Origin: Prochlorococcus marinus CUG1438
GTDB lineage: Bacteria; Cyanobacteriota; Cyanobacteriia; PCC-6307; Cyanobiaceae
Direction: 5' to 3'
Length of the DNA stretch: 64,000 nt
Assembly: GCA_017644325.1 (NCBI GenBank)
Contig: JAEPLS010000001.1
Location: 124,001-188,000 of the forward strand
Position numbers and translations under genes: made by a program. Positions 1,405 to 47,106 of the stretch are shown piece by piece; position 1 is the stretch's first letter; every line of letters begins with the position of its first letter. The notes below the pieces were generated by a model. The model ran no database searches. It saw nothing but the letters and a program-made list of their open reading frames with translations, and was not told the DNA's origin.

Positions 1405-2786
1405 TTTAACTTCTTTAATTTACGATATATAAACATAACTGCTCTTGCTAATCTCCTTGGATCATGTCTTAAGGTTGGAGTTATTCTTTTTGAATAAAGT
1501 GGGGCCTGCAAAACATAATATCCATCTGATAATAATTTTTCTTTATTACATCGGACAGGCTCTGCACCTTTACTTTCGTAATAGTCTACTAATGGAGACT
1601 TCTCGAATTGACTCTGAGATAAGATTGAGTTAAAAATTCTTGTATTAACGCCAAAATTTGATAATTGTTTTTCAATTGCTTTGATGTGTTGATACACGTC
1701 AAGTCCATCAGTCTCTCCAGGCTGTGTCATTAAATTACTTATGTAAATTTTGGGAGCATCTGTTTTCAATAAGGCATCAACTATTTCAGGTACCAATAAG
1801 TTTGGCAATAAAGAGGTGTATAAACTTCCGGGTCCAAGAACTATTAAGTCAGCATCTTTTATGGCATCGAGAGCACTAGGTAGCGCAGAAGGATTTTCTG
1901 GTAGATAACCAATCCTTGAAATTAATTGTTTAGATTTACTTATATTACTTTCGCCAAAAATCTTTTCACCATCTTCTAATTCAGCCCATAACATAACATC
2001 AATATTTGTTGCTGGCAGAACCTGACCTTGTACTGCCAAAACTTTACTAGAAGCTTGAACTGCTTTTTCTAAACTACCTGTAATTGTTGTTAAAGCAGAA
2101 ATAAATAGATTCCCAAAACTATGGCCCTCTAGACCACTTCCTTCTGAAAATCTATATTGAAATAATCTAGTTAAGGTAGGTTCTTCGTTTGATAAAGCAG
2201 CTAAACAATTTCTAATATCTCCTGGAGGTTGCACACCTAATTGTTTTCTAAGAATTCCACTACTTCCACCATCATCTGATACGGTTACAATTGCTGTAAT
2301 ATTATTGCTGTAATTTTTTAAACCTTTTAATAAAGTAGATAACCCTGTACCTCCGCCAATTGCAACAATATTAGGACCTCTGTTTAATTTACTCTTAACT
2401 CTTAATGCATCAACTAAAAAAGTATTTTTTTCAGGAACAAGCGCTTTCTGAATAGAGTTAATACTTCTATTTTGTCCAACCCCAATCAATAAAAGTCCAA
2501 TAATAAAAATTAATGGTCCCAATAATGAAACAGGCAATATACTAGTCAGGTCTGTCATTAAACCAAAAAATAATTCGATAAGCCAATAGAGAGGTCTTAA
2601 ATTTGTCCAAATCGCCAATCCTAATAATGCAGTAAGAAATCCAATTGCAGATGTAAGCATCCATCTTTTTATTACCAGTCCCGGCAAAAGCCAACTCAAA
2701 ATCCTTAAAATTTTATTGAGTAAAACAAAATTAGATTTTTTGTAACGTTGGTAATATCTTCTTACTCTTTTTTTTCGCTTATTCAT
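1401..2786 (-). CDS. YvcK/CofD-like (UPF0052) protein with N-terminal membrane segment
   Basis: The protein has 461 residues. The YvcK/CofD-fold domain begins near residue 138 with the nucleotide-binding loop [15 protein letters not shown]. It continues with [38 protein letters not shown] and MTQPGETDG, all typical of the YvcK branch. YvcK binds UDP-sugars and affects carbon use and cell-wall synthesis in other bacteria; its role in cyanobacteria is not settled. Residues 40-105 hold two or three hydrophobic stretches, so the domain is probably tethered to a membrane, unlike Bacillus YvcK. It is not a true CofD, since nothing nearby concerns F420. Confidence 0.88.
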
Positions 2787-2921
2787 TAAAAACCTCTTAA
2801 ATTATCTTCTCAAATTTAAATAATTTACTTAGTTTCATTATAAATCAAATTAATACCTCCTTTTTTTATTTCTAAAAATAGGCAAAATATAATTGAAGAT
2901 AACTTTTTCTTAAAAAAGGTT

Positions 2922-3707
2922 TTGAAAAAATCAAAGTATGCAGTTGAAACAAAAAACCTCACAATAAGCTGGGGAACAATTAATGTACTCGATAAACTGA
3001 ATTTTGAACTTAATACTGGGGAGAGATTAGCCATTGTTGGGCCATCAGGTTCTGGTAAATCAACAATTTTAAAAATATTGGCAGGTCTTATTTTACCTAC
3101 CGAAGGAGAATTAAGGATATTTGGGGAAAAGCAAACATACTTAAGATTAGATCAAAATAATCCTCCTGATGTAAGACTAGTTTTTCAAAACCCAGCATTA
3201 CTAGGATCTTTAACTATTGAAGAGAACGTAGGTTTTCTCCTCAGAAGGAATAAAAACTTATCAAAAAAGTCAATCCATGAAATAGTATGTGAATGCTTAG
3301 CGGAGGTAGGATTATTTAATATTGAAAAAAAATTACCGAATGAATTAAGCGGAGGTATGCAAAAAAGAGTAAGTTTTGCTAGAGCTTTAATTACAGATCA
3401 AACTCTTAATGCAAAAACTAAACCTTTATTACTTTTTGATGAACCGACTGCAGGTCTTGACCCAATTGCCTCATCAAGAATTGAAGATTTAATTAATAAA
3501 ACAAATGAAAAAGCTAAAGGCTCATCTATTGTGGTTAGCCATGTTCTTAGTACTATAGAAAGGACATCTGATAAAGTTTTAGTGCTTTATGGAGGTAGAT
3601 TTAGATGGGCAGGTTCTACTGATGAATTTAAAAAAAGTAACGATCCCTATGTATTTCAATTTAGAAATGGGAAACTTGATGGTCCTATGCAACCCAATGA
3701 CATCTAG
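2922..3707 (+). CDS. ABC transporter ATP-binding protein, MlaF-like
   Basis: This is a 261-residue ABC ATPase. Walker A GPSGSGKST is at 40-48, the signature LSGGM at 142-146, and Walker B LLLFDEPTAGLDP near 169-181. A substrate-binding MCE protein starts 5 nt after the stop, which points to the Mla/TGD family of phospholipid transporters (MlaF role) rather than a nutrient importer. No permease (MlaE/TGD1 type) is adjacent, so it must be encoded elsewhere. The start is TTG at 2922; no in-frame ATG lies near the conserved beginning. Confidence 0.9.
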   Translation: MKKSKYAVETKNLTISWGTINVLDKLNFELNTGERLAIVGPSGSGKSTILKILAGLILPTEGELRIFGEKQTYLRLDQNNPPDVRLVFQNPALLGSLTIEENVGFLLRRNKNLSKKSIHEIVCECLAEVGLFNIEKKLPNELSGGMQKRVSFARALITDQTLNAKTKPLLLFDEPTAGLDPIASSRIEDLINKTNEKAKGSSIVVSHVLSTIERTSDKVLVLYGGRFRWAGSTDEFKKSNDPYVFQFRNGKLDGPMQPNDI

Positions 3708-3712
3708 AAATT

Positions 3713-4558
3713 ATGCGTAGAAGTTTACGAGATTCAATAGTTGGATTTTCCTTACTAGGGGGGATTTTAATATTCACATTTTTTTCTTTTTGGTTAAGAG
3801 GAGTAAAATTATCAAAAAAAAATTGGCACCTCTTCGCCGAATTCAATAACGCAAGTGGTTTATCAAAAAAATCTCCAGTAACTTATAGAGGAATTTTAGT
3901 AGGCTCAGTAGAAGATATCTTTTTTACCAATGAATCAATTCAAGCAAAAATAGTCTTAAATGATCCTGCAATTATTCTTCCAAAGCCAGCATTCGCGAAA
4001 GTAACAACTAATTCATTCCTTGGAGGCGATGTTCAAGTAGCTTTAGAGACTAGTGAAAAAACAATTCCTAAAAACATAGAGACCCCTACATCCGAAGAAT
4101 GTAACTCCAAATTAATTATTTGCAAGGGAGATATTATCCCTGGCAAACAACTATCAAGCCTCTCAAATGTAACAAATAGAATTAGTCAATTTTTAAAAGA
4201 ATCAAATCAAGAAAACTTAATTGAGAACATAGTTAAGTCAATAGATCAATTTGATAAAACACAAGAAAACCTTGATGAACTAATTTATTTATCAAAAAAA
4301 GAAGTATTGAGAGTTAAACCTTTAATAAAAGAAATTACTATTGCTGCTAATAATTTAAATGATATTTTATCTACCATCAATGACAAAGAAACCCTTAGTG
4401 ATATTAAATCAACAATTAATGCAGCAAGATCTATTTCCAGAAAAATAGACGATATGAGCGATGATTTTGAAAAGTTAACTAAAGATAAAGAATTAACTAA
4501 ATCTATAAGAGATTTAACTATTGGACTTTCAAAATTTCTTAATGAAATTTATCCATAA
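3713..4558 (+). CDS. MCE-domain protein (MlaD/TGD2-like)
   Basis: The protein has 281 residues. One N-terminal membrane helix lies at about residues 10-30. An MCE domain follows at about 38-115, with VTYRGILVGSVEDI and the SFLGGDVQVAL region. The C-terminal half is helical and probably coiled-coil. MCE proteins bind lipid and hand it between membranes, and in chloroplasts TGD2 does this at the envelope. Pairing with the upstream ATPase supports a lipid-transport role. It converges with chlD, whose stop is 6 bp away. Confidence 0.88.
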   Translation: MRRSLRDSIVGFSLLGGILIFTFFSFWLRGVKLSKKNWHLFAEFNNASGLSKKSPVTYRGILVGSVEDIFFTNESIQAKIVLNDPAIILPKPAFAKVTTNSFLGGDVQVALETSEKTIPKNIETPTSEECNSKLIICKGDIIPGKQLSSLSNVTNRISQFLKESNQENLIENIVKSIDQFDKTQENLDELIYLSKKEVLRVKPLIKEITIAANNLNDILSTINDKETLSDIKSTINAARSISRKIDDMSDDFEKLTKDKELTKSIRDLTIGLSKFLNEIYP

Positions 4559-44356: not shown

Positions 44357-45091
44357 TCAATTAAATCTTTTTGCAAGAGCTATTGGATCAAATACTGTAA
44401 TCTTTTTTCTCTCAATAGTCAGAAGACCCGAATCCTTTAAATCACCTAATAATCTTGTAATAGTTACTCTTGTTGAACCAATCGCTTCAGCAATAGCTTG
44501 ATGAGATAGCCTCAAATCTATTGTAATACCCTTTTCGCTTGCAACTCCAAAGTCTCTACAGAGGACCATTAAAAAGCTTACTAAACGAGAAGACATATCT
44601 CTATGAGTGAGGGTTTCTATCATTGTTTCGGTTTGTAGAATCCTACTTGAAAGGCCCTGCAACAATAATAGTCCTACTGATGCGTCATCCTCTATTGCTC
44701 TTAAAACAGAATGAGCAGGTGCTGTTATCATTTCAACTCGTGTAAAAGCTATGGAATGATAAAAACGATCAGATCTATGGCCTGTAAGGAGAGATAAAAC
44801 ACCAAAAAGGCTATTCTCTCTTAAAAGTGCGACAGTTATTTCTTCACCTGACTCGTAAACTCTTGATAGCCTTACTGCTCCTCTTTTTATTAAATAAACT
44901 CTCTCTGCCGGATCCCCTGGGAAAAATATTGTTTTCGATCTCTCAACCATTTCTGTGCTAGCACCTTCAAGACCCTTAATTACTTCCATTAAGGTTCTAT
45001 TGATTGGGAAACGTTCTCCAACAGAGTTGATTTTATTTTGTCCGGACAGTTGCGAACTAAAACTGCTGAATCCTCGAGAAGAAGGTATCAT
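44357..45091 (-). CDS. ntcA: Global nitrogen regulator NtcA
   Basis: NtcA is the 244-residue CRP/FNR-type regulator that, with 2-oxoglutarate and PipX, turns on nitrogen-scavenging genes. The effector domain shows [21 protein letters not shown] and [18 protein letters not shown]-like sequence. The C-terminal helix-turn-helix is [20 protein letters not shown]. The first 35 residues are a variable tail. Its own promoter carries a near-perfect NtcA site, so it is self-activated. The gene is divergent from the CobO-like/dcd/thyX operon. Confidence 0.98.
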
Positions 45092-45154: not shown

Positions 45155-45232
45155 ATTTTGAATTCTTTTTGGTTTCCCTAGCAATGTCCCTAGGTTAACT
45201 TCAACTTTCCCAGCTGTTTTTTAAGTAACATT

Positions 45233-45279
45233 ACACTATATGCAGTGTAATTAAATTCAAATTATACTGCATATAGACA
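45233..45279 (+). promoter_or_regulatory. Candidate tandem NrdR boxes and promoter of the CobO-like/dcd/thyX operon
   Basis: Box 1, ACACTATATGCAGTGT (45233-45248), matches the NrdR consensus acaCwAtATaTwGtgt at 14 of 16 positions. Box 2, ATACTGCATATAGACA (45264-45279), matches at 10 of 16, with 8 of 10 in the core. The two cores (CTATATGCAG and CTGCATATAG) are exact reverse complements, and their start-to-start spacing is 31 bp, three helical turns, as in known paired NrdR sites. A TATACT minus-10 box (45263-45268) overlaps box 2, as repression needs. The region is also a 17-bp inverted repeat with one mismatch. Confidence 0.65.
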
Positions 45280-45293
45280 AGAAACCTACAATA

Positions 45294-45875
45294 ATGGTAA
45301 TTAGTTCAAATAATAATTATTCAAAAAATAATTTTGATGTTGCAAGAATAGGTAGTCCTAACAAAATAAATTTAAAAAGATTCACACAAAACGGACAAAT
45401 CCAAATCTATCAATCTTCTTATAGAGGAAGTTATTCCTCCATCATTAGTGACTCTCTTAGAAATGCTGCTCTTGGCAGGAAAGTACTTTTGGCACAATTT
45501 ATGAAAGGAGGAGTAAAGCAAGGAATTGATAATGCGGTTAAGCTTTGTGGGAATCTAACCTGGGTAAGATCATCTCATTCCTATGATCAATATGATTCTG
45601 AAGAAATTGAAAAAAATAAAAATTTAAAAAAAATTATTGATCAAGCTGTTTATGAATTATGGAATTTTTGTAAAAAAGAATTACTATCAGGTGTACATGA
45701 TCAGATCATTCTCGATGAGATTTTTCTTGCAATTGAATTAAAGCTTATCGATAAGGATGATTTGATTTCAACACTTGAAAACCGATTTATCCCAGGAGAT
45801 GTAATCCTTACTGGTACAAGTATCCCCAAAGATTTATTATTAATGGCCAATCAAATTACTGAACTTCGCTCATAA
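45294..45875 (+). CDS. CobO/BtuR-like cobalamin adenosyltransferase homologue with a degenerate P-loop
   Basis: This is a 193-residue protein of the CobO/CobA/BtuR fold. Clear family marks are LLAQFMKGG, the DEIFLAIELKLI stretch (CobO: DExxxAL), and the C-terminal FIPGDVILTGTSIPKDLLLMAN and ITELR. Where CobO has GxGKGKTT, this protein has SSYRGSYS (about residues 41-48), so the Walker A lysine and threonines are gone. ATP binding in the CobO manner is doubtful. It opens the operon with dcd and thyX (4 bp and 0 bp gaps). It could be a regulator or partner of B12-dependent dNTP synthesis. Confidence 0.75.
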   Translation: MVISSNNNYSKNNFDVARIGSPNKINLKRFTQNGQIQIYQSSYRGSYSSIISDSLRNAALGRKVLLAQFMKGGVKQGIDNAVKLCGNLTWVRSSHSYDQYDSEEIEKNKNLKKIIDQAVYELWNFCKKELLSGVHDQIILDEIFLAIELKLIDKDDLISTLENRFIPGDVILTGTSIPKDLLLMANQITELRS

Positions 45876-45879
45876 AATA

Positions 45880-46473
45880 ATGCTAAAGAACGATCTCTGG
45901 ATAAATAAAAAAGCATCAGAAGGAATGATAAATCCCTTTCAGTCAAATTTGGTGCGACATCTCGAGCCTAATAATCAACAAAAGCCAGTCTTAAGTTATG
46001 GATGTTCATCTTATGGCTATGATCTAAGACTTTCATCAAAAGAGTTCCTAATTTTTAGGCATATCCCTGGAACTGTTATGAATCCTAAAAAGTTTAATCC
46101 TAATAATTTAGAAAAAACAGTTCTTCATCATGATGAAGATGGAGAATTTTTCATTCTTCCAGCACATTCTTATGGTTTAGGAGTGGCTCTAGAAAAAATG
46201 AAGGTACCAGAGAATATAACCGTGATTTGTATAGGTAAAAGTACTTACGCCCGCTTAGGGATTATTGTTAATACAACCCCCGCAGAGGCAGGATGGGAAG
46301 GTCACTTAACTTTAGAGTTTAGTAATAGTTCAGGTGCAGATTGTAGAATTTACGCTAATGAGGGTATCTGCCAATTACTCTTTTTTGAGGGTGATCCATG
46401 CTCTACAACTTATCAAGATAGAAAAGGTAAATATCAAAATCAACCAGAACAAGTTACTCTTGCAAAGATTTAA
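45880..46473 (+). CDS. dcd: dCTP deaminase (Dcd)
   Basis: This is a 197-residue enzyme that deaminates dCTP to dUTP, the source of dUMP for thymidylate synthesis. Motifs: SYGCSSYGYDLRLS at the N-terminal side, IGKSTYARLGIIVNTTPAEAGWEGHLTLEFSN holding the active-site Glu and Arg, and NEGICQLLFF. The gene starts 4 bp after the CobO-like gene and ends directly at thyX. Confidence 0.95.
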   Translation: MLKNDLWINKKASEGMINPFQSNLVRHLEPNNQQKPVLSYGCSSYGYDLRLSSKEFLIFRHIPGTVMNPKKFNPNNLEKTVLHHDEDGEFFILPAHSYGLGVALEKMKVPENITVICIGKSTYARLGIIVNTTPAEAGWEGHLTLEFSNSSGADCRIYANEGICQLLFFEGDPCSTTYQDRKGKYQNQPEQVTLAKI

Positions 46474-47106
46474 ATGAGTAAAGTTGAACTAATTTCGCTA
46501 ACTCCTGATGCAGAAAAAACAATGGCTTACATTGCGAGAGTTAGTAATCCAAGCAATCAGAAAAATGAAGACTATTCAAAACTATTGAGCTATTGCATTA
46601 AAAATGAGCATTGGAGTGTCTTTGAACAGGCATTTATGACATTACAAATAGAAACCAACAGAGGAATTGCAGCTCAAATTTTAAGACATAGATCATTTAC
46701 TTTCCAGGAATTTTCACAGAGATATGCAGATAGTTCTCAACTAGGGAATATCCCACTGCCAGATTTAAGAAGACAAGATTTTAAAAATAGGCAAAATTCT
46801 ATCCCAGACCTTTCTGATGAGTTAAAAAAAAGATTCAATCAAAGAATTGCCTCTCATTTTAAAGCAGCTTCAGAATTATATGAAGATTTACTCGCTGAAG
46901 GTATTGCCAAAGAATGTGCGAGATTTGTTTTACCATTAGCAACTCCTACCAGAATCTATATGTCTGGATCATGCCGATCGTGGATACACTACATTCATTT
47001 AAGATCAGCTCATGGGACTCAAAAAGAACACAAATCTATTGCCGAGAATTGCAAGTCTATTTTTAAAAAAAGTTTTCCAATTGTATCAAAATCTCTAGAT
47101 TGGTAA
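46474..47106 (+). CDS. thyX: Flavin-dependent thymidylate synthase (ThyX)
   Basis: ThyX methylates dUMP to dTMP using FAD and methylene-tetrahydrofolate. The protein has 210 residues. The ThyX motif RHRSFTFQEFSQRY matches RHRxxSxxExSxRY with one substitution. ARFVLPLATPTRIYMSGSCRSWIHYIHLR is the C-terminal family block. Its ATG directly follows the dcd stop, making a dUTP-to-dTMP unit with the upstream gene. No thyA is seen here. It converges with txlA. Confidence 0.96.
   Translation: MSKVELISLTPDAEKTMAYIARVSNPSNQKNEDYSKLLSYCIKNEHWSVFEQAFMTLQIETNRGIAAQILRHRSFTFQEFSQRYADSSQLGNIPLPDLRRQDFKNRQNSIPDLSDELKKRFNQRIASHFKAASELYEDLLAEGIAKECARFVLPLATPTRIYMSGSCRSWIHYIHLRSAHGTQKEHKSIAENCKSIFKKSFPIVSKSLDW

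Follow-up and report, generated by a model that had tools for sequence, protein, structure and literature searches.

Paired NrdR operators are described for ribonucleotide reductase (RNR) operons: the promoters of nrdAB, nrdHIEF and nrdDG in Escherichia coli and of the class Ia and class II operons in Streptomyces coelicolor each carry two 16-bp palindromes, as does the locus analysed here. Recent accounts portray NrdR as an ATP/dATP-sensing repressor (PMC9110341; PMC12176259), and one of them terms it RNR-specific (PMC9110341). As reported for synthetic sites in vitro, NrdR binds box pairs with spacers of 14-17 or 24-27 bp, binds pairs with other spacers two orders of magnitude more weakly, and leaves single boxes unbound (PMC12051234). 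Because one box attracts no NrdR, the whole case for an operator at the locus analysed here depends on box 2 being functional.

We analysed the window, the whole 64,000-nucleotide stretch of Prochlorococcus marinus CUG1438 DNA, in which a paired NrdR-type operator very probably overlies the promoter of an operon made up of a cobO-like gene, dcd and thyX. Match counts refer to the 16 positions of ACACWATATWTWGTGT, which we take to be the NrdR consensus, and bit scores come from a matrix made solely from nrdJ boxes of other genera. The features of the locus are as follows.

45217..45232, no strand assigned: T-rich block of the TTTTTTAAGTAAAATT type, immediately 5' of box 1.
45233..45248, no strand assigned: NrdR-type box 1 (ACACTATATGCAGTGT), at the place expected for a -35 element; 14/16 against the consensus, 15.6 bits with the nrdJ-trained matrix.
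45263..45268, plus strand: putative -10 element TATACT, overlapping box 2.
45264..45279, no strand assigned: NrdR-type box 2 (ATACTGCATATAGACA), the weaker of the two; 10/16 against the consensus, -14.6 bits with the nrdJ-trained matrix.
45294..45875, plus strand: CobO/BtuR-like paralog, PRK07414-like; PF02572 above cut-off, NF005648 at 134.6 bits and under its cut-off of 248.
45880..46473, plus strand: dcd, dCTP deaminase; TIGR02274 above cut-off.
46474..47106, plus strand: thyX, FAD-dependent thymidylate synthase; TIGR02170 above cut-off.
44357..45091, minus strand: ntcA, the divergent neighbour, given for context and not as a target; TIGR03697 above cut-off.

The window reads ...TTTAAGTAACATT, box 1, spacer AATTAAATTCAAATT, box 2, then AGAAACCTACAATAATG.... 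Box starts lie 31 bp apart, leaving a spacer of 15 bp, and the 10-bp cores, CTATATGCAG in box 1 and CTGCATATAG in box 2, are exact reverse complements. These coordinates, match counts, offset, core symmetry and TATACT overlap had all been given in an earlier sequence-only reading, and they held when we re-read and rescored the sequence. No -35 element of the dcd-operon promoter was recognisable by eye in the window. In a helical-phase test, the spacer fits the 14-17 bp class and box 2 itself is weak.

Box 1 is the only 16-mer in the window that scores at least 14. Simulation of 400 first-order Markov windows produced a single 16-mer of this quality in 79 of them, and a pair scoring at least 14 and at least 10 with starts 30-33 bp apart in 6; box 1 alone is therefore unremarkable and the pair moderately striking, which makes the window's sequence by itself suggestive only. 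A whole-genome 16-mer search allowing up to 3 mismatches returned 11 strand-matches against 11 for a reversed control, with box 1 as the best match. It is conservation across loci, not single-window statistics, that settles the reality of the box pair. We aligned loci of high-light (HL) Prochlorococcus, a label assigned by resemblance to MIT 9401 and MIT 9107, which we take to be high-light strains; the loci are the best 80 of 196 relatives and hence biased toward close ones. The pair and 31-bp spacing, on whose recurrence across strains the earlier reading had staked its case, are kept throughout these best 80 of 196: box 1 in 80/80, box 2 at exactly +31 in 80/80 and TATACT at +30 from box 1 in 80/80. 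Within the same best 80 of 196 loci, box columns are conserved at 89-100%, apart from a single column at 55% in one box and at 71% in the other; of the spacer columns, the first six are looser (56-91%) and the nine beside the -10 mostly are not, and the 45217-45232 block matches the boxes with 96-100% at every column. Box 2 of HL loci mostly agrees with the consensus at 9-11 of 16 positions and scores about -15 bits with the nrdJ matrix.

The operon is tightly packed, with 4 bases between the cobO-like gene and dcd and the thyX ATG placed immediately after the dcd stop codon. Across the family Cyanobiaceae, dcd follows the cobO-like gene in 92/92 loci, and a dcd match was present in 21/30 outgroup loci. 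ThyX lies within the fetched stretch in at least 53/92 family genomes, many stretches being too short to tell, and had no match in the 30 outgroup loci, where the operon consists of the cobO-like gene and dcd. The CobO-like protein matches four NCBIfam models and falls under the cut-off in all four. It is homologous to the PRK07414 'P-loop NTPase family protein' within the CobA_CobO_BtuR family, from which it differs in having no CobO-type Walker A motif (Gx[GA]xGK[TS]); the window protein reads SSYRGSYSS at that place, and the motif was found in 0/92 family paralogs and in none of 30 outgroup N-termini of CobO-like proteins. The protein is thus unlikely, as judged from its sequence, to adenosylate cobalamin. 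Further CobO-like copies occur in the same genome, for example at G000:C3:54022. The sequence-only reading had placed dNTP supply and the B12 cofactor of the reductase under one repressor; with the Walker A motif missing here and in the relatives examined, the cofactor half of that idea is unsupported. What we do observe is a conserved CobO paralog without Walker A tied to dcd, a dNTP gene.

The regulator that the earlier reading presupposed is encoded in the genome as one nrdR (Zn ribbon PF22811, 71.7 bits; ATP-cone PF03477, 80.1 bits), and the TIGR02505 profile identified one class II RTPR, nrdJ; the class I/II model PF02867 matched no RNR in the same genome, nor any in S. elongatus. The window pair sits at cobO-like/dcd/thyX and not at an RNR operon, and nrdJ lies elsewhere with its own pair. 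We examined 62 nrdJ upstream regions from the 100 family genomes with an nrdJ match, and 49 of the 62 carry paired boxes at a distance of 31 or 32 bp that score at least 27 bits. The nrdJ matrix was trained on 92 boxes from 46 of these 49 genomes, with HL excluded. The 13 regions below 27 bits belong to seven HL genomes, G004, G013, G078 and three g12 genomes; G004 and G013 are without nrdR. In all seven HL nrdJ upstreams a pair persists at 31 bp in degenerate form, AACCGTTAAATAGTGG (-7.9 bits) and ACGCCACAGRTAGAGT (13.3 bits in its common form). Six extra genomes viewed at nrdJ showed the pair in two g9 genomes, and no good nrdJ pair was seen in four g5 or three g12 genomes. The earlier claim that the target here is not nrd therefore fails in that form: nrdJ bears a pair too, which is strong in the majority of Cyanobiaceae examined and, in this genus, degenerate yet conserved, so dcd/thyX joins nrdJ as a target and does not replace it.

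The Zn-ribbon/linker length of NrdR is the same in two HL sequences as in 29 other aligned family sequences. At nrdR itself, the start codon is overlapped by a box-like CAC..ATGCAGTGT in seven HL genomes (L001 at about 1458-1509; L205, L324-L328), and inspection by eye suggests a possible partner some 32 bp further upstream. This site surfaced in the 16-mer search with up to 3 mismatches; two HL genomes were scored for it and gave only 1.6 and 7.3 bits. Since these scores are low and the sequence is partly coding, autoregulation of nrdR in HL genomes is possible and only a weak lead.

We then asked how far the nrdJ-type box extends on the dcd operon, running the nrdJ matrix at a threshold of 9.7 bits over the 450 bp that precede the cobO-like gene, in 92 family genomes outside HL. 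G031 and G073, 2 of the 101 family genomes, have no clear operon locus and stand outside the counts. A box reached threshold in 86/92 genomes within 450 bp, and a longer upstream search in eight genomes added G041 and G063 (14.3 bits, same -10 signature), giving 88/92. Four genomes were counted as boxless, G004, G013, G037 and G027; the last has nrdR, and its only match, 13.9 bits at -451 without the -10 signature, was counted as none. Best scores in control windows (n = 183) had their 95% point at 6.3 bits and a maximum of 9.4. Markov-shuffled upstreams had a 95th percentile of 10.1 bits, so that the lowest-scoring true boxes are not significant when taken singly. We also searched for ACACYRTNNATRGTGT in 20 whole genomes, chosen with their promoters known, and found it in 12/20; of its 15 distinct locations, 10 are at the dcd operon, 2 at nrdJ and 3 elsewhere, and there were 27 strand-matches against 4 for a reversed control. 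The three exact matches away from nrdJ and dcd are in L391, L402 and L401 at 1501-1516; two of them, from two g17 genomes, consist of the palindrome ACACTATAAATAGTGT (or its complement), and no obvious dNTP gene lies near any of the three.

Two side observations concern these promoters. A LexA-like site, for which we assume the form [AG]GTACNNN[AGT]GT[AT][CT], stands directly 5' of the NrdR box in 29/86 above-threshold family promoters (for example L251, L224, L167 and L227), at a fixed offset of -13 in 24 promoters and -17 in 5, counted without a chance control; this arrangement suggests that some family members combine SOS control with that by NrdR. Separately, an IMG/VR contig of 4503 bases, L323, holds host-type paired boxes, cobO-like, dcd and thyX at 1-2060 and, at 2085-4503, genes that look phage-like by eye, among them one for a PhoH-like ATPase. 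The switch apparently falls inside thyX, and the contig is either an assembly chimera or a real recombinant.

Loss of the site accompanies loss of the regulator. NrdR was not found in four family genomes, G004, G037, G013 and G063, where the ATP-cone is also missing; the cone is present in the other eight genomes tested for it. The dcd-operon box is absent in G004, G037 and G013, also with the longer upstream search, and G063 (93% complete) is the exception, with a box at -535 though nrdR was not found. Family-wide, the box occurs in 87/88 nrdR-bearing against 1/4 nrdR-less genomes (Fisher p = 0.00013, shared ancestry ignored). The promoter of G004 and G037 can be aligned with those of nrdR-bearing congeners, and by eye the right half of box A alone remains. 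Outside the family, a look-up in 80 outgroup genomes found nrdR in 74 and none in six, namely five f30 genomes and G107. A pattern search had given no box in 10/30 outgroup loci, five from f30 and five from nrdR-bearing genomes, and four of the latter five reach at least 21/32 at a permitted distance. The f30 genomes were thus boxless by pattern before they proved nrdR-less on look-up, so the prediction held, and the pattern alone is not clean. Pairs of at least 21/32 at the permitted distances occur in 59/74 nrdR-bearing against 0/6 nrdR-less outgroup genomes (Fisher p = 0.00018, with a threshold set after the scores were seen and ancestry ignored); the 15/74 nrdR-bearing genomes below 21/32 include all five f4.

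These results bear on the idea that the palindromes serve some other regulator whose site resembles theirs in its ACAC...GTGT form, such as a DNA damage or cell-cycle sensor. The poor NrdR match of box 2 speaks for it, and the LexA-like sites mean that a second regulator may act in some genera. Against it, a matrix trained on nrdJ boxes alone still finds the dcd-operon boxes, absence of the site tracks absence of nrdR in 3/4 nrdR-less genomes in the family and 6/6 outside it (by the 21/32 pair criterion in the outgroup), and the spacing classes described below fit NrdR. We regard a different regulator as improbable.

The preferred reading, an NrdR operator, draws further on the distance between boxes. 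We scanned 74 nrdR-bearing outgroup upstreams for pairs of at least 23/32 at start distances of 17-70 bp. Pairs were enriched at 41, 42 and 43 bp only (8, 16 and 3 genomes, against 0-2 at other distances), and one Markov shuffle per genome yielded 0 such pairs. A start distance of 41-43 bp corresponds to a spacer of 25-27 bp. At 21/32 the best pair fell at 41-43 bp in 50 of the 59 passing outgroup genomes, with a background of 28/74 passing at nine other distances and 20/370 shuffles passing; given that high background, we base the spacing argument on the 23/32 scan. Separate box A and box B matrices, built from 48 outgroup genomes and run on the 92 family genomes with no limit on distance, placed 41 in the 41-44 bp range and 5 at 32 bp; a further 26 were scattered over distances none of which recurred more than three times, and the other 20/92 were same-site calls and uninformative. 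Applied to the HL loci (best 80 of 196), the two matrices called the same site for both boxes and are therefore silent on HL box 2. All five family genomes at 32 bp belong to genus g4, and in 6/6 g4 genomes the -10 lies 9-11 bp nearer box A. The spacing classes are thus about one helical turn apart with phase kept, 31 bp in HL and 32 bp in g4 against 41-43 bp, and their spacers of 15-16 and 25-27 bp agree with both in vitro NrdR classes. We had entertained non-HL dcd promoters as single-box sites and dropped this, as the 24-27 bp class and the outgroup sequences point to a second box over the -10.

Could the conserved sequence be simply a core promoter, with -35, -10 and an UP-like stretch, and the palindromes mere by-products? 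TATACT lies in box 2, conservation of the T-rich block 5' of box 1 matches that of the boxes, and among pairs of the 41-43 bp class the -10 falls within box B and the -35 lies directly against box A, a coincidence with promoter geometry that explains part of the fixed distance. Yet the ACAC..GTGT arms of box 1 are no promoter element, and by eye G004 and G037, both nrdR-less, retain the promoter but not box A. The spacing also shortens by about one turn in the dcd promoters of g4 and HL, where no -35 was recognisable by eye. Taken together, this makes a core promoter alone a highly improbable account. That the element serves the divergently transcribed ntcA is scarcely credible: ntcA is the divergent neighbour here and was found in 85/92 family loci, yet 0/30 outgroup loci have an ntcA match near the cobO-like gene while most have pairs, and the boxes hold their distance to the operon's own -10.

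We consider it highly likely that the pair is an NrdR operator that shuts down cobO-like/dcd/thyX together with nrdJ at high dATP. The boxes, their spacing and conservation, the nrdJ match, the co-absence with nrdR and the spacing classes are sequence evidence; binding, nucleotide sensing and repression are carried over from published NrdR work in other bacteria. At high dATP, ATP/dATP-loaded NrdR would occupy both boxes on one helix face, covering the -35 region through box 1 and the -10 and probable start region through box 2, and would block polymerase. DCTP deaminase and thymidylate synthase would be lowered together with nrdJ, turning down dCTP-to-dTMP conversion, and once dATP fell NrdR would leave and the operon would be expressed. 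What survives of the sequence-only reading is its paired NrdR-type operator, with nrdR present and the spacing conserved; what does not is the exclusion of nrd and the B12 link.

Beyond this locus, we lean towards a picture in which NrdR in cyanobacteria represses the whole dNTP supply and not RNR alone. Control of cobO-like/dcd would be old in the phylum, with g5 and g12 having a recognisable site at the dcd promoter alone of the two, and the operator would evolve by gain or loss of one helical turn, from 25-27 bp in most lineages to an apparently independent contraction to 15-16 bp in HL Prochlorococcus and in g4. If true, such one-turn evolution would be a natural counterpart of the in vitro helix-phase rule. 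With the same type of site on genes that set the dCTP-to-dTMP share, one dATP sensor would govern how large the dNTP pool is as well as how it is balanced, in a photosynthetic organism that ranks among the most abundant. The finding offers a testable second NrdR target, genomes that have lost repressor and sites, and a test by nature of the rule on spacing. Among titles and the opening lines of abstracts in the open literature, we found no paper linking NrdR to dcd/thyX or dealing with cyanobacterial NrdR targets; RegPrecise includes a cyanobacterial collection as well as NrdR, and there is the earlier study of Rodionov and Gelfand (2005), so the sites may already be listed.

Set beside known systems, the locus shares with RNR-operon pairs the two helical-phase spacer classes and the overlap with the promoter, in a genome that has both nrdR and nrdJ. 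It is unlike them in its target, which comprises dCTP deaminase, ThyX and a Walker A-less CobO paralog, and in the unusually degenerate box 2 of HL Prochlorococcus. The proposed non-RNR target topA of Pseudomonas aeruginosa likewise lies outside the RNR genes (PMC12051234). As presented there, topA has one box and a presumed activation that is called questionable (PMC12051234), whereas the operon described here has two boxes in the geometry of a repressor.
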